DNA from: Leuctra nigra
Lineage: Eukaryota > Arthropoda > Insecta > Plecoptera > Leuctridae
DNA length: 64,000 nt
Reading direction: 5' to 3'
Assembly: GCA_934045905.1 (NCBI GenBank)
Contig: OW203765.1
Coordinates: 27,685,997-27,749,996 of the forward strand
Shown here: positions 13,588-61,871 of the stretch, piece after piece
Layout: each line of letters opens with the position of its first letter
Numbering within the stretch: the stretch's first letter is position 1
Notes under the pieces: generated by a model
The model's input: the letters and a program-made list of their open reading frames with translations, nothing else
Database searches by the model: none
What the model was told of the DNA's origin: nothing
Made by a program: the position numbers and the translations under genes

Positions 13588-16500
13588 ATGTTCCTAAACT
13601 TCAGTTTTACATTAGTATTCGTGATTTTAAATCTATGTTTGGGAGTAAGAAGTGATGTTTCGAGTGGCGATGCTTTGAGACTGTTTGAGCAGTTGTTTGA
13701 GTTTAGTTTGAGCGTGTCAGCTTTGACATCGGATGTGTTTGACAATGAGTTGTGCAGAAATCACAGCAGACTCTACGAGCAAGCAGCCAGGAATAACGAG
13801 ATGTGGGCGTTAAAGAGTGAGTATTCACGCAGTGTTCAATGATCTAGCCTATCTAGCCCATAACCCACGACCAGTGTTGGGTAAGTTCCTTTTGAAAAGG
13901 AACTAGTTCCAGTTCCAAGTTCCTCGCCAAAAAAAGGAACTAGTTCCAGTTCCCGTTCCTTCAATAATGAAAGGAACTATTCCGTTCCTAGTTCCTTTAT
14001 AAAAGGAACTTAGTTACTTTTAGTTCCTTTTTAAAGAAATGTGTAATTAAAATTGGAACATTAAAAATTGCAATTTGCAAATTAAAAATCAAAAATCAAA
14101 AATGGAATCACTGTATCACAGCAGATTCGATAAGATTATCAGAGAGATAAGAAGATTCGTAAAAACTAAAAATTCAGTGGCGATGTAATGTGTCCTACAC
14201 AGTGATCGGAAAGGAAATGTGAGGAAGGAAACAAAGTAAAAGCTAAAAAGACGACGATCTGAAATCTGAAATCTGTGTGCCTGCGCACTGTCATTGCTAG
14301 GAATGAAGTTTGGTCTGAAGGGTTGGCCAATAGATAGATGTCCATTGATTGTGTAAGGTTAGGTGACGACTGGTTTGAATTATTTTTAGATGCCAAATTA
14401 TAATAGCTGACTTCTGACAGAATTAAACAAATATGTGCCTTCTAGACGAGTGCAGTTTTTCGGAGTATAAGTATACAGTCAAGTTTAAAAAAAAGGAACT
14501 TAGCAAAAATCGTTACAGTTCCTCAAAAAAAGGAACTAAACCGTTCCATAGTTCCTCCCTAAAAAAAGGAACTAAGACGTTCCATAGTTCCTAAGAAAAG
14601 GAACTAGTTCCTAGGAACGGAACTATTTCGTTCCGTTCCTACCCAACACTGCCCACGACGAGGCAACCTAATGCTGCTGGGCAACTACACATGCACTAAT
14701 CTTCCTGCTGGTGATCTCCCCCAGTGTTAGACGCCGGCGCCAAGCTGCCTGCCGGCTTGCTGACCGGCAACCTGGTGCTGCTGGGCAACTACACATGCAC
14801 TAATCTTCCTGGTGATCTCCCCCAGTGTTAGACGCCGGCGCCAAGCTGCCTGCCGGCTTGCTGACCGGCAACCTGGTGCTGCCGGGCAACTACACATGCA
14901 CTAATCTTCCTGATGATCTCCCCCAGTGTTAGACGCCGGCGCCAAGATGCCTGCCGGCTTGCTGACCGGCAACCTGGTGCTGCTGGGCAACTACACATGC
15001 ACTAATCTTCCTGGTGATCTCCCCCAGTGTTAGACGCCGGCGCCAAGCTGCCTGCCGGCTTGCTGACCGGCAACCTGGTGCTGCCGGGCAACTACACATG
15101 CACTGATCTTCCTGGTGATCTCCCCCAGTGTTAGACGCCGGCGCCAAGCTGCCTGCCGGCTTGCTGACCGGCAACCTGGTGCTGCTGGGCAACTACACAT
15201 GCACTAATCTTCCTGGTGATCTCCCCCAGTGTTAGACGCCGGCGCCAAGCTACCTGCCGGCTTGCTGACCGGCAACCTGGTGCTGCTGGGCAACTACACA
15301 TGCACTAATCTTCCTGGTGATCTCCCCCAGTGTTAGACGCCGGCGCCAAGCTGCCTGCCGGCTTGCTGACCGGCAACCTGGTGCTGCTGGGCAACTACAC
15401 ATGCACTAATCTTCCTGGTGATCTCCCCCAGTGTTAGACGCCGGCGCCAAGCTGCCTGCCGGCTTGCTGACCGGCAACCTGGTGCTGCTGGGCAACTACA
15501 CATGCACTAATCTTCCTGGTGATCTCCCCCAGTGTTAGACGCCGGCGCCAAGCTGCCTGCCGGCTTGCTGACCGGCAACCTGGTGCTGCCGGGCAACTAC
15601 ACATGCACTGATCTTCCTGGTGATCTCCCCCAGTGTTAGACGCCGGCGCCAAGCTGCCTGCCGGCTTGCTGACCGGCAACCTGGTGCTGCCGGGCAACTA
15701 CACATGCACTGATCTTCCTGGTGATCTCCCCCAGTGTTAGACGCCGGCGCCAAGCTGCCTGCCGGCTTGCTGACCGGCAACCTGGTGCTGCTGGGCAACT
15801 ACACATGCACTGATCTTCCTGGTGATCTCCCCCAGTGTTAGACGCCGGCGCCAAGCTGCCTGCCGGCTTGCTGACCGGCAACCTGGTGCTGCTGGGCAAC
15901 TACACATGCACTAATCTTCCTGGTGATCTCCCCCAGTGTTAGACGCCGGCGCCAAGCTGCCTGCCGGCTTGCTGACCGGCAACCTGGTGCTGCTGGGCAA
16001 CTACACATGCACTTATCTTCCTGGTGATCTCCCCCAGTGTTAGACGCCGGCGCCAAGCTGCCTGCCGGCTTGCTGACCGGCAACCTGGTGCTGCCGGGCA
16101 ACTACACATGCACTAATCATCCTGGTGATCTCCCCCAGTGTTAGACGCCGGCGCCAAGCTGCCTGCCGGCTTGCTGACCGGCAACCTGGTGCTGCTGGGC
16201 AACTACACATGCACTGATCTTCCTGGTGATCTCCCCCAGTGTTAGACGCCGGCGCCAAGCTGCCTGCCGGCTTGCTGACCGGCAACCTGGTGCTGCTGGG
16301 CAACTACACATGCACTAATCTTCCTGGTGATCTCCCCCAGTGTTAGACGCCGGCGCCAAGCTGCCTGCCGGCTTGCTGACCGGCAACCTGGTGCTGCTGG
16401 GCAACTACACATGAACTAATCTTCCTGGTGATCTCCCCCAGTGTTAGACGCCGGCGCCAAGCTGTCTGCCGGCTTGCTGACCGGCAACCTGGTGCTGCTG

Positions 16501-19500
16501 GGCAACTACACATGCACTAATCTTCCTGGTGATCTCCCCCAGTGTTAGACGCCGGCGCCAAGCTGCCTGCCGGCTTGCTGACCGGCAACCTGGTGCTGCT
16601 GGACAACTACACATGCACTAATCTTCCTGGTGATCTCCCCCAGTGTTAGACGCCGGCGCCAAGCTGCCTGCCGGCTTGCTAAACGGCAACCTGGTGCTGC
16701 TGGGCAACTACACATGCACTATCTTCCTGGTAATCTCCCCCAGTGTTAGACGCCGGCGCCAAGCTGCCTGCCGGCTTGCTGACCGGCAACCTGGCGCTGC
16801 TGGACAACTACACATGCACTAATCTTCCTGGTGATCTCCCCCAGTGTTAGACGCCGGCGCCAAGCTGCCTGCCGGCTTGCTGACCGGCAACCTGGTGCTG
16901 CTGGGCAACTACACTTACACTAATCTTCCTGGTGATCTCCCCCAGTGTTAGACGCCGGCGCCAAGCTGCCTGCCGGCTTGCTGACCGGCAACCTGGTGCT
17001 GCTGGGCAACTACACATGCACTTATCTTCCTGGTGATCTCCCCCAGTGTTAGACGCCGGCGCCAAGCTGTCTGCCGGCTTGCTGACCGGCAACCTGGTGC
17101 TGCTGGGCAACTACACATGCACTAATCTTCCTGGTGATCTCCACCCAGTGTTAGACGCCGGCGCCAAGCTGCCTGCCGGCTTGCTGACCGGCAACCTGGT
17201 GCTGCTGGGCAACTACACATGCACTAATCTTCCTGGTGATCTCCCCCAGTGTTAGACGCCGGCGCCAAGCTGCCTGCCGGCTTGCTGACCGGCAACCTGG
17301 TGCTGCTGGGCAACTACACATGCACTAATCTTCCTGGTGATCTCCCCCAGTGTTAGACGCCGGCGCCAAGCTGCCTGCCGGCTTGCTGACCGGCAACCTG
17401 GTGCTGCTGGGCAACTACACATGCACTAATCTTCCTGGTGATCTCCCCCAGTGTTAGACGCCGGCGCCAAGCTGCCTGCCGGCTTGCTGACCGGCAACCT
17501 GGTGCTGCTGGACAACTACACATGCACTAATCTTCCTGGTGATCTCCCCCAGTGTTAGACGCCGGCGCCAAGCTGCCTGCCGGCTTGCTGACCGGCAACC
17601 TGGTGCTGCTGGGCAACTACACATGCACTAATCTTCCTGGTGATCTCCCCCAGTGTTAGACGCCGGCGCCAAGCTGCCTGCCGGCTTGCTGACCGGCAAC
17701 CTGGTGCTGCTGGGCAACTACGACGAGTGTCTGGAGGCGCACGATGACGACGGCGATGTCGCTGGACAACACTGCATGGTCTCACTCGGACCCACCAGCT
17801 ACTTCTCACACATTAATCTCAAGAATAAAGCTGACTTCCTACCGACTGTCATAACCAGCATGCAGAAAAGACTGAACCAAACAAAATCGGTAAATGAGAA
17901 TGTATGTTTCTGTGGAAAACTTCCATGGAGTCAGGATGATAGGAGGGGAAGTGCGTTGTGAAAAATATCCAAACGAACCGGGGCTCGAACCCATGACCTC
18001 TCACTTGCCGGACGAGAGCTCTACCAACCCTCATCAGTACGTTGTGTCTATAATGTCCGTTCGTCCGACCGGGTAGCTCGAGATCTCTTTGTACCTATAT
18101 TATTGTTTTTTTTGTTTGAATTTATTAATTGAACCTGATGGTGCCTATCAGGAACTGGGTGAAACGTTGATCTGAAATAAAAATTATAAAGCAAATGCCG
18201 AAAAACTTATTAATTATAATGAGCGGCAGTATAGAAAAAAGAAGAAGAAAAAAATATATTATAATATGTTGATCCTCCTGTCTGATGCAGCGCAAGTTGC
18301 TGGACCACGTGGGCATGACGTGGTCGGTGTGCGTGCCTGACACGTGTCGGCCACGTGACCTTGAGTTGCATCTTCAACGCGTGTTGCAGCGCCTCAACGT
18401 CAACATCACCGTGGACCAGCTGGCCTGCAACGCGCTCAGAGATCCTCCTGCAACGCTCAGACTCGCTGATGTCTTAGCGCTGTAAGTTGCACTCAGTTTA
18501 CCAAGACAACGCTCAGACTAGCTGATGTCTTAGCGCTGTAAGTTGCACTCAGTTTACCAAGACAACGCTCAGACTAGCTGATGTCTTAGCGCTGTAAGTT
18601 GCACTCAGTTTACCAAGACGACGCTCAGACTCGCTGATGTCTTAGCGCTGTAAGTTGCACTCAGTTTACCAAGACAACGCTCAGACTCGCTGATGTCTTA
18701 GCGCTGTAAGTTGCACTCAGTTTACCAAGACAACGCTCAGACTCGCTGATGTCTTAGCGCTGTAAGTTGCACTCAGTTTACCAAGACAACGCTCAGACTA
18801 GCTGATGTCTTAGCGCTGTAAGTTGCACTCAGTTTACCAAGACAACGCTCAGACTCGCTGATGTCTTAGCGCTGTAAGTTGCACTCAGTTTACCAAGACA
18901 ACGCTCAGACTCGCTGATGTCTTAGCGCTGTAAGTTGCACTCAGTTTACCAAGACAACGCTCAGACTAGCTGATGTCTTAGCGCTGTAAGTTGCACTCAG
19001 TTTACCAAGACAACGCTCAGACTCGCTGATGTCTTAGCGCTGTAAGTTGCACTCAGTTTACCAAGACAACGCTCAGACTCGCTGATGTCTTAGCGCTGTA
19101 AGTTGCACTCAGTTTACAAAGACAACGCTCAGACTAGCTGATGTCTTAGCGCTGTAAGTTGCACTCAGTTTACCAAGACAACGCTCAGACTCGCTGATGT
19201 CTTAGCGCTGTAAGTTGCACTCAGTTTACCAAGACAACGCTCAGACTCGCTGATGTCTTAGCGCTGTAAGTTGCACTCAGTTTACAAAGACAACGCTCAG
19301 ACTAGCTGATGTCTTAGCGCTGTAAGTTGCACTCAGTTTACCAAGACAACGCTCAGACTCGCTGATGTCTTAGCGCTGTAAGTTGCACTCAGTTTACCAA
19401 GACAACGCTCAGACTCGCTGATGTCTTAGCGCTGTAAGTTGCACTCAGTTTACCAAGACAACGCTCAGACTCGCTGATGTCTTAGCGCTGTAAGTTGCAC

Positions 19501-22500
19501 TCAGTTTACCAAGACAACGCTCAGACTCGCTGATGTCTTAGCGCTGTAAGTTGCACTCAGTTTACCAAGACAACGCTCAGACTCGCTGATGTCTTAGCGC
19601 TGTAAGTTGCACTCAGTTTACCAAGACAACGCTCAGACTCGCTGATGTCTTAGCGCTGTAAGTTGCACTCAGTTTACCAAGACAACGCTCAGACTAGCTG
19701 ATGTCTTAGCGCTGTAAGTTGCACTCAGTTTACCAAGACAACGCTCAGACTCGCTGATGTCTTAGCGCTGTAAGTTGCACTCAGTTTACCAAGACAACGC
19801 TCAGACTAGCTGATGTCTTAGCGCTGTAAGTTGCACTCAGTTTACCAAGACAACGCTCAGACTCGCTGATGTCTTAGCGCTGTAAGTTGCACTCAGTTTA
19901 CCAAGACAACGCTCAGACTAGCTGATGTCTTAGCGCTGTAAGTTGCACTCAGTTTACCTAGACAACGCTCAGACTCGCTGATGTCTTAGCGCTGTAAGTC
20001 GCACTCAGTTTACCAAGACAACGCTCAGACTCGCTGATGTCTTAGCGCTGTAAGTTGCACTCAGTTTACCAAGACAACGCTCAGACTCGCTGATGTCTTA
20101 GCGCTGTAAGTTGCACTCAGTTTACCAAGACAACGCTCAGACTAGCTGATGTCTTAGCGCTGTAAGTTGCACTCAGTTTACCAAGACAACGCTCAGACTA
20201 GCTGATGTCTTAGCGCTGTAAGTTGCACTCAGTTTACCAAGACAACGCTCAGACTCGCTGATGTCTTAGCGCTGTAAGTTGCACTCAGTTTACCAAGAAA
20301 ACGCTCAGACTCGCTGATGTCTTAGCGCTGTAAGTTGCACTTAGTTTACCAAGACAACGCTCAGACTCGCTGATGTCTTAGCGCTGTAAGTCGCACTCAG
20401 TTTACCAAGACAACGCTCAGACTAGCTGATGTCTTAGCGCTGTAAGTTGCACTCAGTTTACCAAGACAACGCTCAGACTCGCTGATGTCTTAGCGCTGTA
20501 AGTTGCACTCAGTTTACCAAGACAACGCTCAGACTAGCCGATGTCTTAGCGCTGTAAGTTGCACTAAGTTTACCAAGACAACGCTCAGACTAGCTGATGT
20601 CCTAGCGCTGTAAGTTGCACTCAGTTTACTAAGACAACGCTCAGACTCGCTGATGTCTTAGCGCTGTAAGTTGCACTCAGTTTACCAAGACAACGCTCAG
20701 ACTCGCTGATGTCTTAGCGCTGTAAGTTGCACTCAGTTTACCAAGACAACGCTCAGACTCGCTGATGTCTTAGCGCTGTAAGTTGCACTCAGTTTACCAA
20801 GACAACGCTCAGACTAGCTGATGTCTAAGCGCTGTAAGTTGCACTCAGTTTACCAAGTCAACGCTCAGACTCGCTGATGTCTTAGCGCTGTAAGTTGCAC
20901 TCAGTTTATTAAGACAACGCTCAGACTCGCTGATGTCTTAGCGCTGTAAGTTGCACTCAGTTTACCAAGACAACGCTCAGACTCGCTGATGTCTTAGCGC
21001 TGTAAGATGCACTCAGTTTACCAAGACAACGCTCAGACTAGCTGATGTCTTAGCGCTGTAAGTTGCACTCAGTTTACCAAGACAACGCTCAGACTCGCTG
21101 ATGTCTTAGCGCTGTAAGTTGCACTCAGTTTACCAAGACAACGCTCAGACTCGCTGATGTCTTAGCGCTGTAAGTTGCACTCAGTTTACCAAGACAACGC
21201 TCAGACTCGCTGATGTCTTAGCGCTGTAAGTTGCACTCAGTTTACCAAGACAACGCTCTGTGTGACGCTTTCATAAGCGAGCATGTATGACGAGCAAACT
21301 TATAATGAGAGCAAAATGTAACCTTCGTCATCGTACTTGGTAAGAGTCGCTGACCTTTTGACCTTTTAAATTAGAAGAAGGGTACAGGAAAAGAACGCTA
21401 TAAGTGAATTTTTTGAAAAAATTAGTACTCTAGCAGTGATTTTTATGAGCTCTCAGAATATACCATCGGCTTTTAGAAAATATTGCCACAAAGTCTTGAA
21501 AAACGCAAGTGCAATATTGATTTGAATGGAGGATAGATACGAGTCTCAACATAAAACTTCGTTTATCTGCAGTTTCATCTGAATGTGACTTATAGCGTTC
21601 TCTCTCTGTACACTTCAGATGGAAATAATGATTTTGATCAATATGCGGTGCATAACATTCTCTTTGCCAACACTTTTTTTTTTAGAATTGACTTCTGCTT
21701 TTTTAATGTGCAATTCCTATTTCCTTGAAATATTCTGAACAACTTGAATGCCTCGAATGTTGTTAAAGCTTTGCTAAGCCATGGAGCCAAAGCCAAGACT
21801 CACCAATGTCACTCTTCTTTCAGAGGGATGGTATTCACACTTGTAGCTCTGGTATTCCTCAGCACTGTCTATGACGCAGCCACAAGTCATCAAGGTAGAC
21901 TCTATAAGTACATCAGAGGTAGAAGAAGGACGGAAGTCTTCATTGATTCTTGTTTTGAGCTCAAAAACCAATTACCTATTCTGTCTTCATCCAATCATTT
22001 GTAATGGTTACATGAGTCATTGTGTTAGATAATACTTCAATATAACTGATTGTTGTCAAATGGCAATTGATAGAGCTTGATTGCATCATTCCAAAAGTAA
22101 GCCACTCAAAATCGAGACAAAGGACTTCGGACCTTCTACGTTTGAGGTGTTATTATATTTTAAAATATATATTGTTCGTCGAGATATTTGACGTCAAAAA
22201 GTGTCTGCAACATTATTTAAAATTGATCGAACTTATCGTAATTATTGTCTGCGGTTGATTGATTATGATATTTACGACGTCAGAGAACCGATCTCCTGCT
22301 CTGCTCGCCTTCTCTGTGTCGTCCAACTTCCGACGCCTCCTACAAGCACGGCATCCCGACGCCGACGCCCTCCCCGTCATTGACGGCGTCCGCGTGCTCA
22401 GCCTCCTCTGGATCATCCTCTTCCACGTCTACCTGTTCGGTTACTTCAAACCATTCATCAACTTCGACAAGATCGACACAGTAAGATTTAAGCATTTCTG

Positions 22501-27042: not shown

Positions 27043-27096
<54 letters not shown>

Positions 27097-27610
27097 CATC
27101 ATCCAAACCAGGTAACTTTATTCAAAGAAGGGACAATTTTATGGAATTAACAAATACATACAGATAGAACCATCATGGCTAACAAACCTGATATTGTCAT
27201 AAAGAACACAGCAACGAAGACATGCATAATAATTGACGTGGCAATACCTATGGACAGGAACGTGGTGCAGAAAGAAGCAGAAAAAAGAATTAAGTATAGA
27301 GACCTGGAAATTGAAATTGGAAGAATGTGGAAATTGAAAACTAAAGTGGTGCCCATTGTTGTGGGAGCTTTAGGTACAATAAGCAAGAAGTTGCAGGGCT
27401 ACTTGAGTGCAATTCCTGGTACACACTTTAGTGAAGAAATACAGAAAACTGCACTACTTGGAACTTGTCGAATCATAAGAAAAGTTATCACATAGTCTCC
27501 ATAACATGACATGAAAGCCTTAGGAGTATGGTTTACTCCTGGCTTTCCATACTTTGAATGTCGCCAGTATCAATTATAGTACTTTGTATTAGATTACTGT
27601 GAATAAAGAA

Positions 27611-27643
<33 letters not shown>

Positions 27644-31629: not shown

Positions 31630-32099
31630 TTTTATTTTCTTATGGACATAAAGTTGGACGGAATACAAAAGATTGTGATGGTTATATTGGTGTTTGATTG
31701 TTAATTTTGTGAGTGAGACTTGCAGATTTGGACAGGAATTTTGAAGTTGAGGTCTCGATGTTGGTTTCGGTGAGAGTAGTCATGGATTCTTCAACAATTG
31801 CCCAATTGTATTTTCAACACCATCATTTTAAGGCAATATGAAAGATATCTTATTGTTCATTTTCCTATCTTTATAGTATGGCTGGATGTCTGTTCTTACC
31901 CTTATAAACAATACTTCTTTTAAACAAAACAATCCTACAAAATACTAAAAAGTAGTGATTTTAAAAAATTGCCCACTTCAAAACTTTATTTAAAACATCT
32001 ACAATATTGAGCGCATCGTTCTTTATTGAGCGTATCATTGTAGAGATAGTTTGATATATCACCTAGTTTGGTATATTTTATTTCTGACCTATTCTTCTA

Positions 32100-33530: not shown

Positions 33531-33532
33531 CA

Positions 33533-47100: not shown

Positions 47101-50100
47101 TCATGTAGGCGCAGAAGCACAGCTTGCTGAGCACGTGGAACACGTGGCAGGACAGGAACGTGGTCAGGAAGCCTGGAACCAGACAATGCCCGTGGTGATC
47201 ATGTAGTGGGTCATGTAGGCGCAGAAGCACAGCTTGCTGAGCACGTGGAACACGTGGCAGGACAGGAACGTGGTCAGGAAGCCTGGAACCAGACAATGCC
47301 CGTGGTGATCATGTAGTGAGTCATGTAGGCGCAGAAGCACAGCTTGCTGAGCACGTGGAACACGTGGCAGGACAGGAACGTGGTCAGGAAGCCTGGAACC
47401 AGACAATGCCCGTGGTGATCATGTAGTGGGTCATGTAGGCGCAGAAGCACAGCTTGCTGAGCACGTGGAACACGTGGCAGGACAGGAACGTGGTCAGGAA
47501 GCCTGGAACCAGACAATGCCCGTGGTGATCATGTAGTGAGTCATGAAGGCGCAGAAGCACAGCTTGCTGAGCACGTGGAACACGTGGCAGGACAGGAACG
47601 TGGTCAGGAAGCCTGGAACCAGACATTGCATGTAGGAATCCATCCGGAATAACACGTATTGGTTCACGTAGGTGTTTGACATGAAATACCGAAATAAAGC
47701 TACCGGATAAAAAAACCGGATTTAAATATTAAAGATTGAACATTGAAGACCCTGTAAATTATAAAATCGAATATTGAAGACCGTTTCTAGGTCTGGGAAC
47801 CCCCAAAATAAGATAAAAGTCAACATAGGTTTAATGCACGTCTGGAAAATCGATAGATTAGCTGAACAATTTCCAGATTAAGACATGTAGGTAGATAAAC
47901 GAAGTGCAATGATGTACCGACCTCCATGACCCCTGGAGCATGCGTAGATGACCCAGGCAGCACCTAACGCCCACGCGGGACGCATGAATGCCGAATAGGC
48001 CGCTGTGTTGATGCTATGGAACTCTACATCGGGCTGGATGAAGTGGTGCGCAGTGAGCCATGCGCAGAGTAACACGACGATGCTTGTCAGCCACGCGAGG
48101 CTAGCAACAGGCAGGGAGTGACGTCGCGTGTTGCTCGCCATCTTGGTGGTGTGAAGCAGGTAGCCTAACCCGATGCCGATCAAGTAGGGGGTGAAGCGGG
48201 TGTGGGTTGGGTGGTATTGCCAGCTCATCTCGTGCCTGAAAAGAAAAGCAGTCCCAAATATGAAATAAGAAAAGCACAACCAACTGTTTGTATTTGAATC
48301 TGAGCAATTTGAAAGAATACCGAAACATGTGCAGAATGAAAATAATATTGCACATTTAAATAATTCCGTCTCAATCAATTCAACAAAGTTCGACTGTGAA
48401 CTAAGATGTACTGCATGATAATAATAGATTTTTTTATGATCCCAGGTGATATGAATTCAATGTGTCTTAATTTACAACAACTGTTTAATATTGCATATGC
48501 AGTGACATTCAAACGAATTGTCCCTCTTGATAGTTTGGACTTTGGAGGTCAATGCTTTGGATATTGAAATCTGCATCACCGAGTGTTCAATTCTACAGAA
48601 CAGAACACTAGTAAATGAGGGATTCTAAACCAAACCCTTGTCGTTGACCATATTTCCATGTTGTACTCACATAGAGTTGGAGTTCGCTGCTGGATGGAAC
48701 GGATACTGATTGACGTAGGATACAACGTACGCGATAATCAGACCTACAAATATCCAGAAGCCGAGAAGAATCTTCCCCAGACGCGGTTTCCTGGAAGACG
48801 AAACAGTTTATAAGTATTCTGGATAGAATGCGAGTGTTTTGATTGTACTTCTTTAATACTCACTTCCACAGAGGGAAGAGGACGATCGGTGAGAACCAGA
48901 AGCACTGCATGTCGACGGCGAGGTACCAGCCGCAGCCCAGACACTGGTAAGAGGCAAACAACATAGTATTGTGGTACAGGAGTTATACACTTCAATTACA
49001 GTATTGGTATTGCTGACGGAAGAAATGCAATTTGTGCTTCAGTATTCTTGGGGTTATTTTCAAATTCGTTTAACCATCATCATTCGATTACTCAGTCTTT
49101 TCAGTTTTGGAAGAATTTTGAGACAACGAAACGATCAGACATTGCGGTATAATGATTAATATCTAATCCGCTTGGACATTTACATAGAATCCCTTACTTA
49201 ACGTTAATTGTCAATTTCTTAGAATGGAAATATATCCTAAACTTATTCTGAATCGAGAAGGTGTCTTTGCTCACAATTGATTGTAAAATCATTTTCTTTC
49301 TTTGTAACCTCGACCATTTGTTGCACATCCCTTGTTCGAGATTGCTCTGAAGAACACGGCTGAGGTATGTTGTGAGTGACACTTCTTTATTTTTACAATA
49401 GGGTCTGGTCCATTATGACGAAAGCAAAGACACATTCTACGATTCGGACGAAGTAATATCAATGAGGAAGTTGGGAAATGCTTTATTATGGAGAGATCTA
49501 CAAGGGTTTGTCTCAACTCTCTTGGCCATCTGAGGTGGTAATGAGGGTGATTTGATCAATCAAATCAAGTCTCACCAGTCTCTCCTGATCCAAATAGTTG
49601 GTGAGATACGTGATTCCAGCCCAGCCGATTCTGCTGCAACTCTGTTTGGCCATCTCAGCGTTCGCCTTCAAGAACGGACCTCCTTCAGAATACAGCAGCA
49701 AAGTGCCGCTCATGAACAGGAGAAAGCCGTAGGCCATAGTCAGTCTGGAGCAGTAGTAAAGACATTATCACGTTATACCTTGTGAATACCAGCGAAAAAG
49801 ATCGGCTTCATCTTGGTGGACAGTTCCATTCAAACGCTTGCTAAATTAGGCAATAGAGTTTATACCGACACTTGGCAAAAGTAAACACGTATTCGAAAGA
49901 AAGGATTAACCCATAAAGATTTGATGGTATCGTTTAAAGAAGTCCGATGATGTGTATGCTATCTAGTCATCTAACTCTGGTACTTAAGTGAGCTCTGATT
50001 TCATTGATATAAACAAGGATCACTTGTGAGGAAACCTGAGCAGCAGCCAATATATTTCGTTCAAATACAGTTTTTACTTTGGCCAGGTGTTCATCACAAG

Positions 50101-53100
50101 TTTTCTGTGGTCTCTTAGTTATGATCCCCCGAAAAGTTCTGCATCGGAACTCACCTGATGTATCTGTGCAGGTAATATTTGGTCAGACTGAAAGACACTT
50201 TCTTGTCTCTCTCCTTGAAGAAGTTGTAACAGACGAGAGCGCCTCCGAACATGAGGAAAGTGTCGACGCTGATCGTGCCGTTGGAGACGAACATGTGTGT
50301 CCAGTCGAACGTCGCCTAGTGGAATAGGTCATAGGTCAGTTCATCATAGAAATAGTAGAAGTAGAAATAAAGTTTTCTTCGCCTATTTATAAAAAAGACA
50401 ATGAGACCACTTGCAAGTTTCTAGAATAAATTGCAATATTATGTAAAAAAAAAAAAAAAAAAAAAAATCGGGACAGAAATATTGGAGGATCAAAAGGTCC
50501 AGTCGACACTTACAGAACGAAGAAAATACATTTTCTTCCATACTGTGCAATATTTTGGCCAATTTCGTGATTATACTCTCAGTCACGTATAGTATCACTA
50601 AATCAATGATCAGTCCTCTAGTCTAGAAAACGTTCAGATATCATCTCAACCATCACTTACCGTGTCAATCTTGTCGAAGTTGATGAATGGTTTGAAGTAA
50701 CCGAACTCGTAGACGTGGAAGATGATGATCCAGAGGAGGCTGAGCACGCGGACGCCGTCGATGACGGGGAGGGCGTCGGCGTCGGGATGCCGTGCTTGTA
50801 GGAGGCGTCGGAAGTTTGACGACACAGAGAAGGCGAGTAGAGCAGGAGATCGGTTCTCTGACGTCGTAAATATCATAATCAATCAACCACCGACAATAAT
50901 TACAAAAAGTTCGATCAATTTTAAATACATTTTCGCAGAACTTTTGACGTCTATATCAGTACCTCATAGGTAGAAGGGCGGAAGTCCATTGTATCGATTT
51001 TGCGTTGCATACTTTTGGAATGATGTAATCAAGCTCTATCAATTGACATTTGACTGATGTCAACAAGTACACATATATTGAAGTATTCTCTTACACAAAG
51101 ACTCATGTAACCATTACAAATGATTAGATGACTGGCTTTCGAGCTCAGCTCAAGAATCAATTAAGACTACCGTCCTTCTATCTCTGATGTACGTATATTT
51201 GAGTCTACCTTGATGACTTGTGGCTGCGTCATAGACTGTGCCGAGGAATGCCAGAGCAACAATTGTGATTACCATCCCCCTGAAATAAAAGTGACATTGG
51301 TAAGTCTTGGCTTTAGCTCCATGGCTTTAGCAAAGCTTTAACAACATTCGAGGCATTGAAGTTGTTCAGAATATATCAAGGAAATAGGAATTCCACATTA
51401 AAAAAAGCATTAAAAAAAGCGCTAAAAAAATGAGAATGTTATGCACCGCATATTGTTCAAAATCATTATTTACATCTGAAGGGTACAGAGAGAGAACGCT
51501 ATAAGTCACATTCAGATGAAACTGAGATTAACGAAGTTTTATATTGAAACTTGTATCTTATATCTTCCATACAAATCGATCTTGCAATTGCGTTTTTCAA
51601 GACTTTGTGGCAATATTTTCTAAAAGCGGAGTGTATATTCTAAAAGCTCACAAAAATCACTGCAAGATTACTAATTTTTCCAAAAAATGGACTAAAAACG
51701 TTCTTTTCCTGTACCCTTCTTCTGATTTATAAGGTCAAAAGGTCAGCGACTCTTAACAAGTACGTAGATGAAGATTATATTGTAAATGCATTTGCTCTCA
51801 CTATAAGTTTGCTCGTCATACATGCTCGCTTATGAACGCGTCACACAGAGCGTTGTCTTGGTAAACTGAGTGCGACTTACAGCGCTAAGACATCAGCGAG
51901 TCTGAGCGTTGTCTTGGTAAACTGAGTGCAACTTACAGCGCTAAGACATCAGCGAGTCTGAGCGTTGTCTTGGTAAACTGAGTGCAACTTACAGCGCTAA
52001 GACATCAGCGAGTCTGAGCGTTGTCTTGGTAAACTGAGTGCGACTTACAGCGCTAAGACATCAGCGAGTCTGAGCGTTGTCTTGGTGAACTGAGTGCGAC
52101 TTACAGCGCTAAGACATCAGCGAGTCTGAGCGTTGTCTTGGTGAACTGAGTGCAACTTACAGCGCTAAGACATCAGCGAGTCTGAGCGTTGTCTTGGTAA
52201 ACTGAGTGCGACTTACAGCGCTAAGACATCAGCGAGTCTGAGCGTTGTCTTGGTGAACTGAGTGCAACTTACAGCGCTAAGACATCAGCGAGTCTGAGCG
52301 TTGTCTTGGTAAACTGAGTGCAACTTACAGCGCTAAGACATCAGCGAGTCTGAGCGTTGTCTTGGTAAACTGAGTGCGACTTACAGCGCTAAGACATCAG
52401 CGAGTCTGAGCGTTGTCTTGGTAAACTGAGTGCAGCTTACAGCGCTAAGACATCAGCGAGTCTGAGCGTTGTCTTGGTAAACTGAGTGCGACTTACAGCG
52501 CTAAGACATCAGCGAGTCTGAGCGTTGTCTTGGTAAACTGAGTGCAACTTACAGCGCTAAGACATTAGCGAGTCTGAGCGTTGTCTTGGTAAACTGAGTG
52601 CAACTAACAGCGCTAAGACATCAGCGAGTCTGAGCGTTGTCTTGGTAAACTGAGTGCAACTTACAGCGCTAAGACATCAGCTAGTCTGAGCGTTGTCTTG
52701 GTAAACTGAGTGCAACTTACAGCGCTAAGACATCAGCGAGTCTGAGCGTTGTCTTGGTAAACTGAGTGCGACTTACAGCGCTAAGACATCAGCGAGTCTG
52801 AGCGTTGTCTTGGTAAACTGAGTGCAACTTACAGCGCTAAGACATTAGCGAGTCTGAGCGTTGTCTTGGTAAACTGAGTGCGACTTACAGCGCTAAGACA
52901 TCAGCAAGTCTGAGCGTTGTCTTGGTAAACTGAGTGCAACTTACAGCGCTAAGACATCAGCGAGTCTGAGCGTTGTCTTGGTAAACTGAGTGCAACTTAC
53001 AGCGCTAAGACATCAGCTAGTCTGAGCGTTGTCTTGGTAAACTGAGTGCAACTTACAGCGCTAAGACATCAGCGAGTCTGAGCGTTGTCTTGGTAAACTG

Positions 53101-56100
53101 AGTGCAACTTACAGCGCTAAGACATCAGCGAGTCTGAGCGTTGTCTTGGTAAACTGAGTGCAACTTACAGCGCTAAGACATCAGCGAGTCTGAGCGTTGT
53201 CTTGGTAAACTGAGTGCAACTTACAGCGCTAAGACATCAGCGAGTCTGAGCGTTGTCTTGGTAAACTGAGTGCGACTTACAGCGCTAAGACATCAGCGAG
53301 TCTGAGCGTTGTCTTGGTAAACTGAGTGCAACTTACAGCGCTAAGACATTAGCGAGTCTGAGCGTTGTCTTGGTAAACTGAGTGCAACTTACAGCGCTAA
53401 GACATCAGCGAGTCTGAGCGTTGTCTTAGTAAACTGAGTGCGACTTACAGCGCTAAGACATCAGCGAGTCTGAGCGTTGTCTTGGTGAACTGAGTGCAAC
53501 TTACAGCGCTAAGACATCAGCGAGTCTGAGCGTTGTCTTGGTAAACTGAGTGCAACTTACAGCGCTAAGACATCAGCGAGTCTGAGCGTTGTCTTGGTAA
53601 ACTGAGTGCGACTTACAGCGCTAAGACATCAGCGAGTCTGAGCGTTGTCTTGGTAAACTGAGTGCAACTTACAGCGCTAAGACATTAGCGAGTCTGAGCG
53701 TTGTCTTGGTAAACTGAGTGCAACTTACAGCGCTAAGACATCAGCGAGTCTGAGCGTTGTCTTGGTAAACTGAGTGCAACTTACAGCGCTAAGACATCAG
53801 CTAGTCTGAGCGTTGTCTTGGTAAACTGAGTGCAACTTACAGCGCTAAGACATCAGCGAGTCTGAGCGTTGTCTTGGTAAACTGAGTGCGACTTACAGCG
53901 CTAAGACATCAGCGAGTCTGAGCGTTGTCTTGGTAAACTGAGTGCAATTTACAGCGCTAAGACATTAGCGAGTCTGAGCGTTGTCTTGGTAAACTGAGTG
54001 CGACTTACAGCGCTAAGACATCAGCAAGTCTGAGCGTTGTCTTGGTAAACTGAGTGCGACTTACAGCGCTAAGACATCAGCGAGTCTGAGCGTAGTCTTG
54101 GTAAACTGAGTGCAACTTACAGCGCTAAGACATCAGCGAGTCTGAGCGTTGTCTTGGTAAACTGAGTGCAACTTACAGCGCTAAGACATCAGCTAGTCTG
54201 GGCGTTGTCTTGGTAAACTGAGTGCGACTTACAGCGCTAAGACATCAGCGAGTCTGAGCGTAGTCTTGGTAAACTGAGTGCAACTTACAGCGCTAAGACA
54301 TCAGCGAGTCTGAGCGTTGTCTTGGTAAACTGAGTGCAACTTACAGCGCTAAGACATCAGCGAGTCTGAGCGTTGTCTTGGTAAACTGAGTGCAACTTAC
54401 AGCGCTAAGACATCAGCGAGTCTGAGCGTTGTCTTGGTGAACTGAGTGCAACTTACAGCGCTAAGACATCAGCGAGTCTGAGCGTTGTCTTGGTAAACTG
54501 AGTGCAACTTACAGCGCTAAGACATCAGCGAGTCTGAGCGTTGTCTTGGTAAACTGAGTGCAACTTACAGCGCTAAGACATCAGCGAGTCTGAGCGTTGT
54601 CTTGGTAAACTGAGTGCAACTTACAGCGCTAAGACATCAGCGAGTCTGAGCGTTGTCTTGGTAAACTGAGTGCAACTTACAGCGCTAAGACATCAGCGAG
54701 TCTGAGCGTTGTCTTGGTAAACTGAGTGCAACTTACAGCGCTAAGACATCAGCGAGTCTGAGCGTTGTCTTGGTAAACTGAGTGCAACTTACAGCGCTAA
54801 GACATCAGCGAGTCTGAGCGTTGTCTTGGTAAACTGAGTGCAACTTACAGCGCTAAGACATCAGCGAGTCTGAGCGTTGTCTTGGTAAACTGAGTGCAAC
54901 TTACAGCGCTAAGACATCAGCGAGTCTGAGCGTTGTCTTGGTAAACTGAGTGCAACTTACAGCGCTAAGACACAAGCTAGTCTGAGCGTTGTCTTGGTAA
55001 ACTGAGTGCAACTTACAGCGCTAAGACATCAGCGAGTCTGAGCGTTGTCTTGGTAAACTGAGTGCAACTTACAGCGCTAAGACATCAGCGAGTCTGAGCG
55101 TTGTCTTGGTAAACTGAGTGCAACTTACAGCGCTAAGACATCAGCTAGTCTGAGCGTTGTCTTGGTAAACTGAGTGCAACTTACAGCGCTAAGACATCAG
55201 CGAGTCTGAGCGTTGTCTTGGTAAACTGAGTGCAACTTACAGCGCTAAGACATCAGCGAGTCTGAGCGTTGTCTTGGTAAACTGAGTGCAACTTACAGCG
55301 CTAAGACATCAGCGAGTCTGAGCGTTGTCTTGGTAAACTGAGTGCGACTTACAGCGCTAAGACATCAGCGAGTCTGAGCGTTGTCTTGGTAAACTGAGTG
55401 CAGCTTACAGCGCTAAGACATCAGCGAGTCTGAGCGTTGTCTTGGTAAACTGAGTGCGACTTACAGCGCTAAGACATCAGCGAGTCTGAGCGTTGTCTTG
55501 GTAAACTGAGTGCAACTTACAGCGCTAAGACATTAGCGAGTCTGAGCGTTGTCTTGGTAAACTGAGTGCAACTAACAGCGCTAAGACATCAGCGAGTCTG
55601 AGCGTTGTCTTGGTAAACTGAGTGCAACTTACAGCGCTAAGACATCAGCTAGTCTGAGCGTTGTCTTGGTAAACTGAGTGCAACTTACAGCGCTAAGACA
55701 TCAGCGAGTCTGAGCGTTGTCTTGGTAAACTGAGTGCGACTTACAGCGCTAAGACATCAGCGAGTCTGAGCGTTGTCTTGGTAAACTGAGTGCAACTTAC
55801 AGCGCTAAGACATTAGCGAGTCTGAGCGTTGTCTTGGTAAACTGAGTGCGACTTACAGCGCTAAGACATCAGCAAGTCTGAGCGTTGTCTTGGTAAACTG
55901 AGTGCAACTTACAGCGCTAAGACATCAGCGAGTCTGAGCGTTGTCTTGGTAAACTGAGTGCAACTTACAGCGCTAAGACATCAGCTAGTCTGAGCGTTGT
56001 CTTGGTAAACTGAGTGCAACTTACAGCGCTAAGACATCAGCGAGTCTGAGCGTTGTCTTGGTAAACTGAGTGCAACTTACAGCGCTAAGACATCAGCGAG

Positions 56101-59100
56101 TCTGAGCGTTGTCTTGGTAAACTGAGTGCAACTTACAGCGCTAAGACATCATCGAGTCTGAGCGTTGTCTTGGTAAACTGAGTGCAACTTACAGCGCTAA
56201 GACATCAGCAAGTCTGAGCGTTGTCTTGGTAAACTGAGTGCGACTTACAGCGCTAAGACATCAGCGAGTCTGAGCGTTGTCTTGGTAAACTGAGTGCAAC
56301 TTACAGCGCTAAGACATTAGCGAGTCTGAGCGTTGTCTTGGTAAACTGAGTGCAACTTACAGCGCTAAGACATCAGCGAGTCTGAGCGTTGTCTTGGTAA
56401 ACTGAGTGCGACTTACAGCGCTAAGACATCAGCGAGTCTGAGCGTTGTCTTGGTGAACTGAGTGCAACTTACAGCGCTAAGACATCAGCGAGTCTGAGCG
56501 TTGTCTTGGTAAACTGAGTGCAACTTACAGCGCTAAGACATCAGCGAGTCTGAGCGTTGTCTTGGTAAACTGAGTGCGACTTACAGCGCTAAGACATCAG
56601 CGAGTCTGAGCGTTGTCTTGGTAAACTGAGTGCAACTTACAGCGCTAAGACATTAGCGAGTCTGAGCGTTGTCTTGGTAAACTGAGTGCAACTTACAGCG
56701 CTAAGACATCAGCGAGTCTGAGCGTTGTCTTGGTAAACTGAGTGCTACTTACAGCGCTAAGACATCAGCTAGTCTGAGCGTTGTCTTGGTAAACTGAGTG
56801 CAACTTACAGCGCTAAGACATCAGCGAGTCTGAGCGTTGTCTTGGTAAACTGAGTGCGACTTACAGCGCTAAGACATCAGCGAGTCTGAGCGTTGTCTTG
56901 GTAAACTGAGTGCAACTTACAGCGCTAAGACATTAGCGAGTCTGAGCGTTGTCTTGGTAAACTGAGTGCGACTTACAGCGCTAAGACATCAGCAAGTCTG
57001 AGCGTTGTCTTGGTAAACTGAGTGCGACTTACAGCGCTAAGACATCAGCGAGTCTGAGCGTAGTCTTGGTAAACTGAGTGCAACTTACAGCGCTAAGACA
57101 TCAGCGAGTCTTTGCGTTGTCTTGGTAAACTGAGTGCAACTTACAGCGCTAAGACATCAGCTAGTCTGGGCGTTGTCTTGGTAAACTGAGTGCGACTTAC
57201 AGCGCTAAGACATCAGCGAGTCTGAGCGTAGTCTTGGTAAACTGAGTGCAACTTACAGCGCTCAGACATCAGCGAGTCTGAGCGTTGTCTTGGTAAACTG
57301 AGTGCAACTTACAGCGCTAAGACATCAGCGAGTCTGAGCGTTGTCTTGGTAAACTGAGTGCAACTTACAGCGCTAAGACATCAGCGAGTCTGAGCGTTGT
57401 CTTGGTGAACTGAGTGCAACTTACAGCGCTAAGACATCAGCGAGTCTGAGCGTTGTCTTGGTAAACTGAGTGCAACTTACAGCGCTAAGACATCAGCGAG
57501 TCTGAGCGTTGTCTTGGTAAACTGAGTGCAACTTACAGCGCTAAGACATCAGCGAGTCTGAGCGTTGTCTTGGTAAACTGAGTGCAACTTACAGCGCTAA
57601 GACATCAGCGAGTCTGAGCGTTGTCTTGGTAAACTGAGTGCAACTTACAGCGCTAAGACATCAGCGAGTCTGAGCGTTGTCTTGGTAAACTGAGTGCAAC
57701 TTACAGCGCTAAGACATCAGCGAGTCTGAGCGTTGTCTTGGTAAACTGAGTGCAACTTACAGCGCTAAGACATCAGCGAGTCTGAGCGTTGTCTTGGTAA
57801 ACTGAGTGCAACTTACAGCGCTAAGACATCAGCGAGTCTGAGCGTTGTCTTGGTAAACTGAGTGCAACTTACAGCGCTAAGACATCAGCTAGTCTGAGCG
57901 TTGTCTTGGTAAACTGAGTGCAACTTACAGCGCTAAGACATCAGCGAGTCTGAGCGTTGTCTTGGTAAACTGAGTGCAACTTACAGCGCTAAGACATCAG
58001 CTAGTCTGAGCGTTGTCTTGGTAAACTGAGTGCAACTTACAGCGCTAAGACATCAGCGAGTCTGAGCGTTGTCTTGGTAAACTGAGTGCAACTTACAGCG
58101 CTAAGACATCAGCGAGTCTGAGCGTTGTCTTGGTAAACTGAGTGCAACTTACAGCGCTAAGACATCAGCGAGTCTGAGCGTTGTCTTGGTAAACTGAGTG
58201 CGACTTACAGCGCTAAGACATCAGCTAGTCTGAGCGTTGTCTTGGTAAACTGAGTGCAACTTACAGCGCTAAGACATCAGCGAGTCTGAGCGTTGTCTTG
58301 GTAAACTGAGTGCAACTTACAGCGCTAAGACATCAGCTAGTCTGAGCGTTGTCTTGGTAAACTGAGTGCAACTTACAGCGCTAAGACATCAGCGAGTCTG
58401 AGCGTTGTCTTGGTAAACTGAGTGCAACTTACAGCGCTAAGACATCAGCGAGTCTGAGCGTTGTCTTGGTAAACTGAGTGCAACTTACAGCGCTAAGACA
58501 TCAGCGAGTCTGAGCGTTGTCTTGGTAAACTGAGTGCAACTTACAGCGCTAAGACATCAGCGAGTCTGAGCGTTGTCTTGGTAAACTGAGTGCAACTTAC
58601 AGCGCTAAGACATCAGCGAGTCTGAGCGTTGTCTTGGTAAACTGAGTGCGACTTACAGCGCTAAGACATCAGCGAGTCTGAGCGTAGTCTTGGTAAACTG
58701 AGTGCAACTTACAGCGCTAAGACATCAGCGAGTCTGAGCGTTGTCTTGGTAAACTGAGTGCAACTTACAGCGCTAAGACATCAGCGAGTCTGAGCGTTGT
58801 CTTGGTAAACTGAGTGCAACTTACAGCGCTAAGACATCAGCGAGTCTGAGCGTTGTCTTGGTAAACTGAGTGCGACTTACAGCGCTAAGACATCAGCGAG
58901 TCTGAGCGTTGTCTTGGTAAACTGAGTGAATCTTACAGCGCTAAGACATCAGCGAGTCTGAGCGTTGTCTTGGTAAACTGAGTGCGACTTACAGCGCTAA
59001 GACATCAGCGAGTCTGAGCGTTGTCTTGGTAAACTGAGTGCAACTTACAGCGCTAAGACATCAGCTAGTCTGAGCGTTGTCTTGGTAAACTGAGTGTAAC

Positions 59101-61871
59101 TTACAGCGCTAAGACATCAGCGAGTCTGAGCGTTGTCTTGGTAAACTGAGTGCAACTTACAGCGCTAAGACATCAGCGAGTCTGAGCGTTGTCTTGGTAA
59201 ACTGAGTGCAACTTACAGCGCTAAGACATCAGCTAGTCTGAGCGTTGTCTTGGTTAACTGAGTGCGACTTACAGCGCTAAGACATCAGCGAGTCTGAGCG
59301 TTGTCTTGGTAAACTGAGTGCAACTTACAGCGCTAAGACACAAGCTAGTCTGAGCGTTGTCTTGGTAAACTGAGTGCAACTTACAGCGCTAAGACATCAG
59401 CGAGTCTGAGCGTTGTCTTGGTAAACTGAGTGCAACTTACAGCGCTAAGACATCAGCGAGTCTGAGCGTTGTCTTGGTAAACTGAGTGCAACTTACAGCG
59501 CTAAGACATCAGCTAGTCTGAGCGTTGTCTTGGTAAACTGAGTGCAACTTACAGCGCTAAGACATCAGCGAGTCTGAGCGTTGTCTTGGTAAACTGAGTG
59601 CAACTTACAGCGCTAAGACATCAGCGAGTCTGAGCGTTGTCTTGGTAAACTGAGTGCAACTTACAGCGCTAAGACATCAGCGAGTCTGAGCGTTGTCTTG
59701 GTAAACTGAGTGCAACTTACAGCGCTAAGACATCAGCTAGTCTGAGCGTTGTCTTGGTAAACTGAGTGCAACTTACAGCGCTAAGACATCAGCGAGTCTG
59801 AGCGTTGTCTTGGTAAACTGAGTGCAACTTACAGCGCTAAGACATCAGCGAGTCTGAGCGTTGTCTTGGTAAACTGAGTGCAACTTACAGCGCTAAGACA
59901 TCAGCGAGTCTGAGCGTAGTCTTGGTAAACTGATTGCAACTTACAGCGCTAAGACATCAGCGAGTCTGAGCGTTGTCTTGGTAAACTGAGTGCGACTTAC
60001 AGCGCTAAGACATCAGCGAGTCTGAGCGTTGTCTTGGTAAACTGAGTGCAACTTACAGCGCTAAGACACAAGCTAGTCTGAGCGTTGTCTTGGTAAACTG
60101 AGTGCAACTTACAGCGCTAAGACATCAGCGAGTCTGAGCGTTGTCTTGGTAAACTGAGTGCAACTTACAGCGCTAAGACATCAGCGAGTCTGAGCGTTGT
60201 CTTGGTAAACTAAGTGCAACTTACAGCGCTAAGACATCAGCTAGTCTGAGCGTTGTCTTGGTAAACTGAGTGCAACTTACAGCGCTAAGACATCAGCGAG
60301 TCTGAGCGTTGTCTTGGTAAACTGAGTGCAACTTACAGCGCTAAGACATCAGCGAGTCTGAGCGTTGTCTTGGTAAACTGAGTGCAACTTACAGCGCTAA
60401 GACATCAGCGAGTCTGAGCGTTGTCTTGGTAAACTGAGTGCAACTTACAGCGCTAAGACATCAGCTAGTCTGAGCGTTGTCTTGGTAAACTGAGTGCAAC
60501 TTACAGCGCTAAGACATCAGCGAGTCTGAGCGTTGTCTTGGTAAACTGAGTGCAACTTACAGCGCTAAGACATCAGCGAGTCTGAGCGTTGTCTTGGTAA
60601 ACTGAGTGCAACTTACAGCGCTAAGACATCAGCGAGTCTGAGCGTAGTCTTGGTAAACTGATTGCAACTTACAGCGCTAAGACATCAGCGAGTCTGAGCG
60701 TTGTCTTGGTAAACTGAGTGCAACTTACAGCGCTAAGACATCAGCGAGTCTGAGCGTTGTCTTGGTAAACTGAGTGCAACTTACAGCGCTAAGACATTAG
60801 CGAGTCTGAGCGTTGTCATGGAAAACTGAGTGCAACTTACAGCGCTAAGACATCAGCGAGTCTGAGCGTTGTCTTGGTAAACTGAGTGCAACTTACAGCG
60901 CTAAGACATCAGCGAGTCTGAGCGTTGTCTTGGTAAACTGAGTGCAACTTACAGCGCTAAGACATCAGCGAGTCTGAGCGTTGTCTTGGTAAACTGAGTG
61001 CAACTTACAGCGCTAAGACATCAGCGAGTCTGAGCGTTGTCTTGGTAAACTGAGTGCAACTTACAGCGCTAAGACATCAGCGAGTCTGAGCGTTGTCTTG
61101 GTAAACTGAGTGCAACTTACAGCGCTAAGACATCAGCGAGTCTGAGCGTTGTCTTGGTAAACTGAGTGCAACTTACAGCGCTAAGACATCAGCGAGTCTG
61201 AGCGTTGTCTTGGTTAACTGAGTGCAACTTCCAGCGCTAAGACATCAGCGAGTCTGAGCGTTGTCTTGGTAAACTGAGTGCAACTTACAGCGCTAAGACA
61301 TCAGCGAGTCTGAGCGTTGTCTTGGTAAACTGAGTGCAACTTACAGCGCTAAGACATCAGCGAGTCTGAGCGTTGTCTTGGTAAACTGAGTGCAACTTAC
61401 AGCGCTAAGACATCAGCGAGTCTGAGCGTTGTCTTGGTAAACTGAGAGCAACTTACAGCGCTAAGACATCAGCGAGTCTGAGCGTTGTCTTGGTAAACTG
61501 AGTGCATCTTACAGCGCTAAGACATCAGCGAGTCTGAGCGTTGTCTTGGTAAACTGAGTGCATTTTACAGCGCTAAGACATCAGCGAGTCTGAGCGTTGT
61601 CTTGGTAAACTGAGTGCAACTTACAGCGCTAAGACATCAGCGAGTCTGAGCGTTGTCTTGGTAAACTGAGTGCAACTTACAGCGCTAAGACATCAGCGAG
61701 TCTGAGCGTTGCAGGAGGATCTCTGAGCGCGTTGCAGGCCAGCTGGTCCACGGTGATGTTGACGTTGAGGCGCTGCAACACGCGGTGCAGATGCAACTCA
61801 AGGTCACGTGGCCGACACGTGTCAGGCACGCACACCGACCACGTCATGCCCACGTGGTCAAGCAACTTGCG
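44101..61871 (-). CDS. nrf-6-like: NRF gene 2: inverted nrf-6-like paralogue, exons 3-13, 5' end not in window
   Basis: Eleven minus-strand exons match gene 1 exons 3-13; ten have identical lengths and the last is 3 bp longer, with the same phases: 61871-61681, 51279-51209, 50857-50661, 50315-50155, 49744-49576, 48943-48864, 48790-48671, 48235-47922, 46402-46260, 45740-45632, 44303-44101 (TAA stop). The frame is open. Acyltransferase-3 features are kept (VRVLSLLWIIIFH, RYIR, GWYLAVDMQCF, VETP). The C-terminal tail differs (ASTEQEVSEKNNGG, KEEKRKEEGTEL). Exons 5, 6 and 10 are nearly identical to gene 1; exons 7, 12 and 13 differ more. Exons 1-2 (signal peptide, start of NRF domain) are not recognisable up to 64000, so they lie outside or are lost. 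Array E sits at the exon-3 donor and array D at the exon-11 acceptor. Same presumed role as gene 1. Confidence 0.9.
44540..44945 (-). repeat. Dispersed repeat family R3, inverted copy in NRF gene 2 intron 12
   Basis: GGCACCCAGCAAGACAAAAA, CCAAGTGATAACCCTAAG, CATTTCGTCGACCC and TTTGTCTCCAATCGCATCC are complements of the R3 phrases at 29283-29520, found in the homologous intron. Confidence 0.7.
45025..45477. mobile_element. hAT-like element with exact 8-bp TSD in NRF gene 2 intron 12
   Basis: The ends CAAGGGCGT and the complement ACGCCCTTG are flanked by the exact direct repeat AGTAAGGT at 45017-45024 and 45478-45485. Both sides carry C/G runs and GGGGCTGT-CCCC inverted words. The 453-bp interior lacks coding capacity. 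Confidence 0.88.
45818..45970. repeat. Partial copy of the ATTTACACGGT MITE family
   Basis: GTGTCACACTTCTTGATGGA, TTAGAACATGTT, CAAGTTCTGTGACAG and AAAGAAATTGTACCATGTA match the interior and right end of 12202-12411. The left end is missing. Confidence 0.6.
46309..47629 (-). repeat. Array D: 12 x 110 bp, each with the exon-11 acceptor of NRF gene 2
   Basis: The junction GGTTCCAG|GCTTCCTGACC (minus strand) recurs at plus positions from 46402/46403 to 47612/47613, exactly 11 x 110 bp, so 12 acceptors. Each unit has 94 bp of exon 11 and 16 bp ending ATTGTCTGGTTCCAG. Only the lowest-coordinate copy continues into CTGCCGGCGCTCGCC and the rest of the exon. Reading across a junction gives CAG GCT TCC TGA. 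Gene 1 has a single copy of this acceptor. The repeated 80-aa open frames are shadows. Confidence 0.97.
50439..50468. repeat. Poly-A run in NRF gene 2 intron 5
   Basis: About 30 A residues; probably a retroelement tail, but no element body was defined. Confidence 0.5.
50955..51130 (-). repeat. Dispersed repeat family R2, inverted copy in NRF gene 2 intron 4
   Basis: Complements of the R2 phrases (CATTTGACTGATGTCAACAA, ATTGAAGTATT, ACTTTTGGAATGATG), in the intron homologous to the gene 1 copy. Confidence 0.65.
51470..51700 (-). repeat. Dispersed repeat family R1, inverted copy in NRF gene 2 intron 3
   Basis: ACTTTGTGGCAATATTTTCT, CATTCAGATGAAACTGAG and ACGAAGTTTTATATTGAAAC complement R1 at 21430-21640, at the homologous intron position. 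Confidence 0.7.
51848..61711 (-). repeat. Array E: 176 x 56 bp, each with the exon-3 5' splice site of NRF gene 2
   Basis: On the plus strand the donor complement ACTTAC|AGCGCTAAG recurs from 51880/51881 to 61680/61681. The span is 9800 bp = 175 x 56, giving 176 donors with no net indel. The unit is the same as in array B (31 bp exon end, 25 bp intron). Variants include GCGACTTAC, CATTAGCG, CAGCTAG, CAGCAAG and GGTGAAC. The highest-coordinate copy joins the exon body (GCAGGAGGATCTC). Later donors shift the frame and hit TAA immediately. Confidence 0.97.

Follow-up and report, generated by a model that had tools for sequence, protein, structure and literature searches.

Tandem arrays spanning exon-intron junctions of NRF, odorant-receptor and CD36 genes in Leuctra nigra

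A 64,000-nt stretch of the Leuctra nigra genome (hereafter the window; positions 27685997–27749996 of contig C4 in a 536-Mb assembly of 144 contigs) contains two NRF-6-like genes on opposite strands (NRF genes 1 and 2) and, between them, one odorant-receptor (OR) gene. Five tandem arrays (A–E) in these genes all overlap an exon-intron junction, which raises the question of whether ordinary repeats happened to settle there or whether splice junctions are themselves recurrently amplified in this genome. A survey of the window with Tandem Repeats Finder (TRF) located all five arrays where a preliminary description had placed them, as head-to-tail, near-identical copies (TRF matches of 97–99%; Table 1), and bore out its account of the units, each of which comprises an exon edge and the adjoining intron with its splice site: an acceptor in A, C and D, and a homologous donor in B and E. 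We read the arrays as insect "mirages", that is, minisatellites spanning exon-intron boundaries, with the mode of birth, expansion and exon-proximal splicing set out below, and assign this reading a probability of about 0.8.

Splice sites within the repeat units

The array A unit joins an intron tail of about 33 nt, with a branch-like CTAAT, pyrimidines and CAG, to the first 68 nt of exon 2, and the array D unit joins 17 nt of intron tail to 93 nt of exon head. The array B unit comprises the last 31 nt of exon 3 and the first 25 nt of the intron, carrying the donor GTAAGT. The array E unit is its reverse complement, and the two arrays occupy the homologous exon 3 donor in the two NRF paralogues. 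Exons 1–3 of NRF gene 1, when joined, match the NRF domain (PF20146, 2.2e-22), and the OR exon adjoining array C gives a 7tm_6 match of 1.2e-11 over 52 residues; this odorant-receptor family is not known outside insects and their relatives. The exon at array D, not matched to Pfam on its own, is assigned to the acyltransferase region by position only. NRF gene 1 has a single copy (~26158–26340) at the place corresponding to array D, and NRF gene 2, beyond the window, has a 101-bp acceptor array like A with 49 copies (L039:1690–6629).

Arrays A, C and D hold 30, five and 12 acceptors respectively, the last exon start of array A being at 17654. Array B has 49 exact CTGTAAGT donors in 50 units and array E has 167 (169 GTRAGY) in 176 units, 87 of which are identical to the consensus. 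The exon and intron parts of the B and E units are about equally variable (0.0135 and 0.0096; 0.0104 and 0.0139). Variation figures for the 101-bp arrays are based on eight of 30 units in NRF gene 1 and 36 of 48 in NRF gene 2. An intact GTAAGT or CAG is kept in most copies and the same junctions have been struck repeatedly, as might be expected if the arrays were selected for a function, either as decoys or in the tuning of splicing or expression. Such selection seems very improbable, since the donor bases of the B and E units are, on simple comparison, almost as variable as the other positions, and since copies range from one to dozens among paralogues. According to the mirage reading, the extra copies would be intronic and would drift without coding constraint, as the about equal variation of exon and intron parts shows for B and E.

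A stop codon is met on reading in from the neighbouring copy in arrays A, B, C and D; array E has the unit of array B. The preliminary description regarded all three host genes as open, which stands for the exons adjoining the arrays, the only parts examined. Since most copies carry the same splice signals, the choice of the correct copy must depend on position or on the elimination of faulty transcripts. By exon definition, the spliceosome would join the copy that lies closest to the splice site at the opposite end of the exon, and other choices in the window would lead to frameshifts and to the stops just described. Junction arrays could then lengthen without protein change, unlike arrays wholly in exons.

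Table 1. Arrays of the window and the exons that adjoin them; the acceptor of NRF gene 1 exon 3 and the end of the OR exon are as read from sequence.
Feature	Position	Strand	Unit and copies	Placement
Array A	14662–17721	+	101 bp × 30.3	NRF gene 1 exon 2 acceptor
NRF gene 1 exon 2	17654–17889	+		Starts within exon-proximal array A copy; donor AAATCG/GTAAAT
NRF gene 1 exon 3	18291–18481	+		Ends within first array B copy; intron from 18482
Array B	18451–21258	+	56 bp × 50.1	NRF gene 1 exon 3 donor
Sixth array	36009–36970	+	99 bp × 9.7	Wholly within OR exon, in frame (open frame 35792–37144)
Array C	38082–38682	+	119 bp × 5.1	Acceptor of late OR exon
OR exon	38582–38737	+		Starts within exon-proximal array C copy; end GTT/GTAAGT
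Array D	46308–47629	-	110 bp × 12.0	Acceptor of late NRF gene 2 exon; exon start 46402
Array E	51848–61711	-	56 bp × 176.1	NRF gene 2 exon 3 donor; intron from 61680

The sixth array is the sole large array of the window away from a splice junction. Its 99-bp in-exon OR repeat is also found in L062:433–632 and L066:1–515, with 95–99% identity and little flanking exon aligned by blastn. The minus strand of the window additionally carries a LINE-like reverse transcriptase fragment (28119–28604; RVT_1, 1.8e-7) and an open frame that encodes a Sina-type RING and zinc finger (30865–31779). Similar 185-bp two-copy tandem repeats, probably a dispersed repeat family, are located at 62716–63078 of the window, L021:1962–2307, L024:1962–2306 and L063:2920–3290.

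Recurrence in three gene families

The process was initially proposed to be locus-specific or lineage-specific. Locus specificity was not borne out: the genome, as sampled, contains 12 types of unit that lie on exon edges (acceptors in ten cases, donors in two), spread over three families (NRF, OR and CD36) and at least six contigs. These counts support the proposed recurrent amplification of splice junctions within the genome.

A domain search of the genome yielded at least 104 NRF exon matches (150 of 214 candidates scored), the best 30 of which were made into loci. An exon 2 acceptor array is present in 13 of these 30, with a 124-bp unit in four (L010, L029, L033 and L036) and a 32-bp unit in nine (L016, L018–L024 and L038), the latter all in one cluster on contig C4. 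Among other loci, picked because their matches looked repetitive or as further NRF matches, L045 has a unit of ~140 bp at the exon 2 acceptor and L048 a third 101-bp array, and no array was found in L049 or L050 (same place as L034). Thus, four different units (101, 124, 32 and ~140 bp) occur at one homologous NRF exon 2 acceptor, and the 101-bp unit differs in copy number among paralogues (30 in gene 1, 49 in gene 2 and nine in L048). Twenty of the 30 loci have an exon 3 match; two of these 20 stop within that exon. Among the 20, only L029 has a donor array, of 61 bp × 6.1, which bears no relation to the B and E unit of 56 bp, so that two unrelated units occupy one homologous NRF exon 3 donor; its sibling L010 has a single copy there. 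A further array, of 124 bp × 14, lies at another NRF-family exon (L091), which has an Acyl_transf_3 match of 1.2e-6 and 28.3 bits, below the cut-off of 31.

The 119-bp acceptor array of the OR gene was found at eight loci in the sample, the window included. It is present in all five OR loci chosen for second partial matches, and in two of 14 further OR loci taken by strand and place; one of these 14 (L082) has an unrelated 110-bp two-copy duplication. The 119-bp array has 5–10 copies where it is whole and more than 11 in L074, where it is cut. The CD36 family (92 of 227 candidates scored) contributes two junction arrays, of 147 bp and 135 bp.

The preliminary description also held that every unit length is 2 modulo 3 and that read-through from a neighbouring copy always gives a stop. 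The first statement holds for all five window units and the second for A–D; neither is a rule, given the open frames and other unit lengths elsewhere in the genome. The 12 unit types comprise six of 2 modulo 3 (101, 32, 56, 110, 119 and 110 bp), three of 1 modulo 3 (124, 61 and 124 bp), two multiples of three (147 and 135 bp) and the ~140-bp unit, which is mixed. The 124-bp array in L091 is open in all three phases, for 533–618 codons, and the CD36 147-bp array sits within an open frame of 478 codons.

An assembly artefact, with repeats collapsed, expanded or misplaced, is barely credible as the source of the arrays, given that units and copy numbers differ between loci spread over at least six contigs, where unit variants occur and the flanking sequences are distinct.

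Birth of the arrays and their placement

Short homology at exon edges had been suggested to prime the amplification, and such homology was found at the exon and intron breakpoints of several arrays. Arrays B and E have lengths of 50×56+8 and 176×56+8 (TRF), with the 8-nt CAACGCTC at both array ends, and L029/L090 has a clean homology of 5 nt (CTTAT). Less clean homologies were found in L091 (GTTG, 4 nt, adjoining a mismatch), in the CD36 147-bp array (AACT, 4 nt, imperfect beyond) and in array D (2 nt; length 12×110+2 by TRF). In array C, what looks like the intron part opens with 12 nt (TCAACCTGTTGT) that match exon sequence in single-copy relatives, some of which have a TGTTGT-like word in their native intron tails; the breakpoint homology would be ~6 nt. 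Single-copy siblings exist at junctions that carry arrays in relatives, and one junction is duplicated in two copies only (L082).

An array would be born when a tandem duplication, delimited by a very short stretch common to exon and intron, copies the splice site with the exon edge; some of the breakpoints, and the two-copy case beside single-copy relatives, document this step. Expansion to as many as 176 copies would then proceed by unequal exchange or slippage, a presumed process in keeping with the copy-number variation observed among paralogues. Intron gain by tandem duplication was also considered and was rejected for the OR and NRF exon 2 arrays, whose single-copy relatives have the acceptor at that place. 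The tandem genomic duplication described for such gain (PMC4974935) is likewise a within-gene event, but produces a new intron in the cases described, whereas here an existing intron is lengthened.

The placement of the arrays was compared with a background of arrays with a period of at least 25, at least five copies and at least 90% match. The 58 family-sampled loci (196 kb, exon-centred) contain 14 such arrays: 12 at the NRF exon 2 acceptor (two unit types), one within an exon (L066) and one starting from a stop codon (L002). The last, a 43-bp × 12 array at L002:931–1446, begins where a 7tm_1 receptor exon has its stop codon and continues downstream. No array above threshold was found in 50 kb from five hand-chosen places, where one lay just below it (30 bp × 5.0, 89%, in an open frame). 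When founder units were simulated on the window, the probability that at least four of five straddle an exon edge was 2.6e-4; the simulation used an approximate list of 24 exons (48 edges) and was made post hoc on a window chosen for its arrays. With such a window and exon-centred loci, the junction bias is suggestive and is not a genome-wide estimate.

Alternatively, ordinary minisatellites may arise without junction bias and pass a survival filter, in which in-exon arrays persist as multiples of three, junction arrays persist whatever their length and other arrays go unnoticed. The in-exon arrays are in frame, as this predicts (99 bp in the window and 30 bp in an open frame at L042), and several junction arrays share an origin, so that independent births are fewer than loci. 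Ten of the 12 junction units have lengths not divisible by three, yet eight would be expected by chance. The filter fails to explain the scarcity of arrays in plain introns and intergenic DNA (58 loci, 196 kb; 50 kb arbitrary), and we consider it improbable. That arrays have arisen again and again at the same borders in large paralogous families suggests a mutational bias at these places.

Several points weigh against the mirage reading with its recurrent births at junctions. That the spliced copy is the exon-proximal one we infer from DNA sequence, and the copy numbers are those of the assembly. The 13 NRF exon 2 arrays represent only two unit types, shared by descent, and nine of the 20 best-scoring OR loci match the late exon, all of them lacking the OR acceptor array. 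Inspection by eye found no evenly spaced partial exons in the lists for 7tm_1 (at least 149 matches, 147 of 626 candidates scored), P450 (at least 98 matches, 92 of 835 scored) and TCP1 chaperonin (57 matches, 55 of 55 scored); this control is weak, since none of the 101-bp arrays (array A, gene 2 and L048) and none of the 32-bp arrays shows up as repeated matches in the NRF list. The 3' end of the CD36 135-bp array (L092; C12:5760350–5761060) enters unrelated sequence with a truncated exon copy, and the locus is either an orphan array or a broken gene. As for the breakpoints, the left edge of array A is degenerate and its homology unclear, the 124-bp NRF exon 2 unit has at most 2 nt of homology plus filler, and automatic extension of exact matches yielded a clean value for one of ten arrays, owing to point variants. 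Finally, the junction bias is based on exon-centred sampling and 50 kb from five places.

Homogenised exon heads and comparison with known systems

The OR exon heads were compared among 18 related ORs, eight with arrays and ten without (L062, L066, L068, L076–L078, L083, L085, L087 and L088); L051, L057, L067, L070, L081 and L082 were excluded from the counts, and L065 was used only in the outsider group of the step analysis. Divergence at fourfold sites is 0.23 and 0.24 within the two groups over the first 105 nt of the exon, and 0.57 and 0.59 over nt 105–147. For four more distant ORs the values are 0.60 in the head and 0.33 in the tail (8 of 24 sites, with indels). Nine array-less ORs (L087 dropped for an indel) show a third-position step from 0.18 to 0.58 at nt 102, with none of 5000 shuffles as sharp, and an all-site step at nt 104; on the intron side, their similarity stops 8 nt before the exon. 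The steps of the array-bearing ORs lie at nt 101 (all sites) and nt 90 (third positions), and their exon-proximal copy diverges for good from the unit at ~nt 101–108, with scattered earlier differences in several loci. L062 and L066 differ at 0 of 54 positions in the compared tail and at 5 of 99 in the head.

These step positions imply that the block homogenised in the array-less ORs is almost the same as the exon portion of the unit. Since the homogenised head occurs in dispersed ORs with and without arrays, the array cannot be called its cause. The data suggest, without proving it, that the arrays, or the exchange producing them, rewrite exon edges. Conversion from internal units would give the OR block; block and unit may also have a shared cause. 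A further proposal, which we put forward tentatively and with more doubt than conviction, is that mirage arrays and ectopic gene conversion in dispersed paralogous families reinforce each other. Exons would be the main homology among paralogues, so that strand exchange would stop at exon edges, where microhomology misalignment would start a junction duplication; after expansion, the internal units would be the commonest conversion donors and would rewrite no sequence beyond that covered by a unit. This proposal predicts a jump in OR divergence near the place where array copies part from units.

NRF exon 2 shows no clear divergence step of the OR kind. The loci with the 124-bp unit diverge at the nucleotide level by 0.014 and 0.021 within the unit and by 0.062 past its edge, and 0 of 120 fourfold sites differ. 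Array-specific homogenisation is not established for this exon, a single-copy cluster on contig C1 being about as uniform (0.011, 0.005 and 0.026). In that cluster (L009, L025, L028, L030–L032, L035 and L037), exon 2 is nearly identical among paralogues and the intron 30–60 nt upstream differs at 0.67 of sites on average, with some members sharing intron tails.

Outside insects, comparable boundary repeats are known, among them a 31-bp variable number tandem repeat (VNTR) of the human CBS gene that ranges over ~16–21 copies. As described, this VNTR spans the exon 13-intron 13 boundary, like the minisatellites reported here, and differs in affecting one gene and in being termed non-coding sequence (PMC5188458, PMC1395315). 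The 68-bp insertion c.844_845ins68 of the same gene is a duplication of the intron 7-exon 8 junction, for which strong preference for the downstream copy and production of normal mRNA are reported, and gene conversion with such chromosomes as template has been proposed (PMC2630376). It differs in having two copies, in one gene, as a polymorphism. Human variable internal tandem repeats are also of minisatellite size, in recent paralogues and in part at exon-intron boundaries; the repeats described are units of ~30 bp in about four copies, discussed as making new introns (PMC2812944). Tandem repeats of earthworm metallothionein, as presented, lie within an intron, not across a boundary (PMC12783039).

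The closest likeness is to the mirages of amphioxus, reported in Adh3, in the globins BflGb6 and BflGb9 (PMC3087553) and in PGBD5 (PMC3902484), where Adh3 data and reverse transcription PCR of the globins are said to suggest normal splicing (PMC3087553, PMC3902484). Shared features are the boundary-spanning unit, near-identical copies, splice signals and a varying copy number, which differs between paralogues here and is reported as unstable in amphioxus; the units of 32–147 bp fall within the reported 10–160 bp. The differences are the insect host, the scale (up to 176 copies and 10 kb, compared with 3–6 units reported in BflGb6), the several units at one homologous junction of paralogues and the homogenised OR exon heads. 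No report of boundary-spanning arrays in an insect was found in the openly licensed literature.

The junction arrays are genuine and recurrent, and belong to a known kind that appears here in a new setting and on a much larger scale; a link to gene conversion is tentative. Near-identical splice sites that occur up to 176 times and differ chiefly in position provide a natural test of splice-site choice. If the arrays do act as conversion donors, intronic tandem repeats would shape receptor coding sequence and drive the evolution of exon edges.
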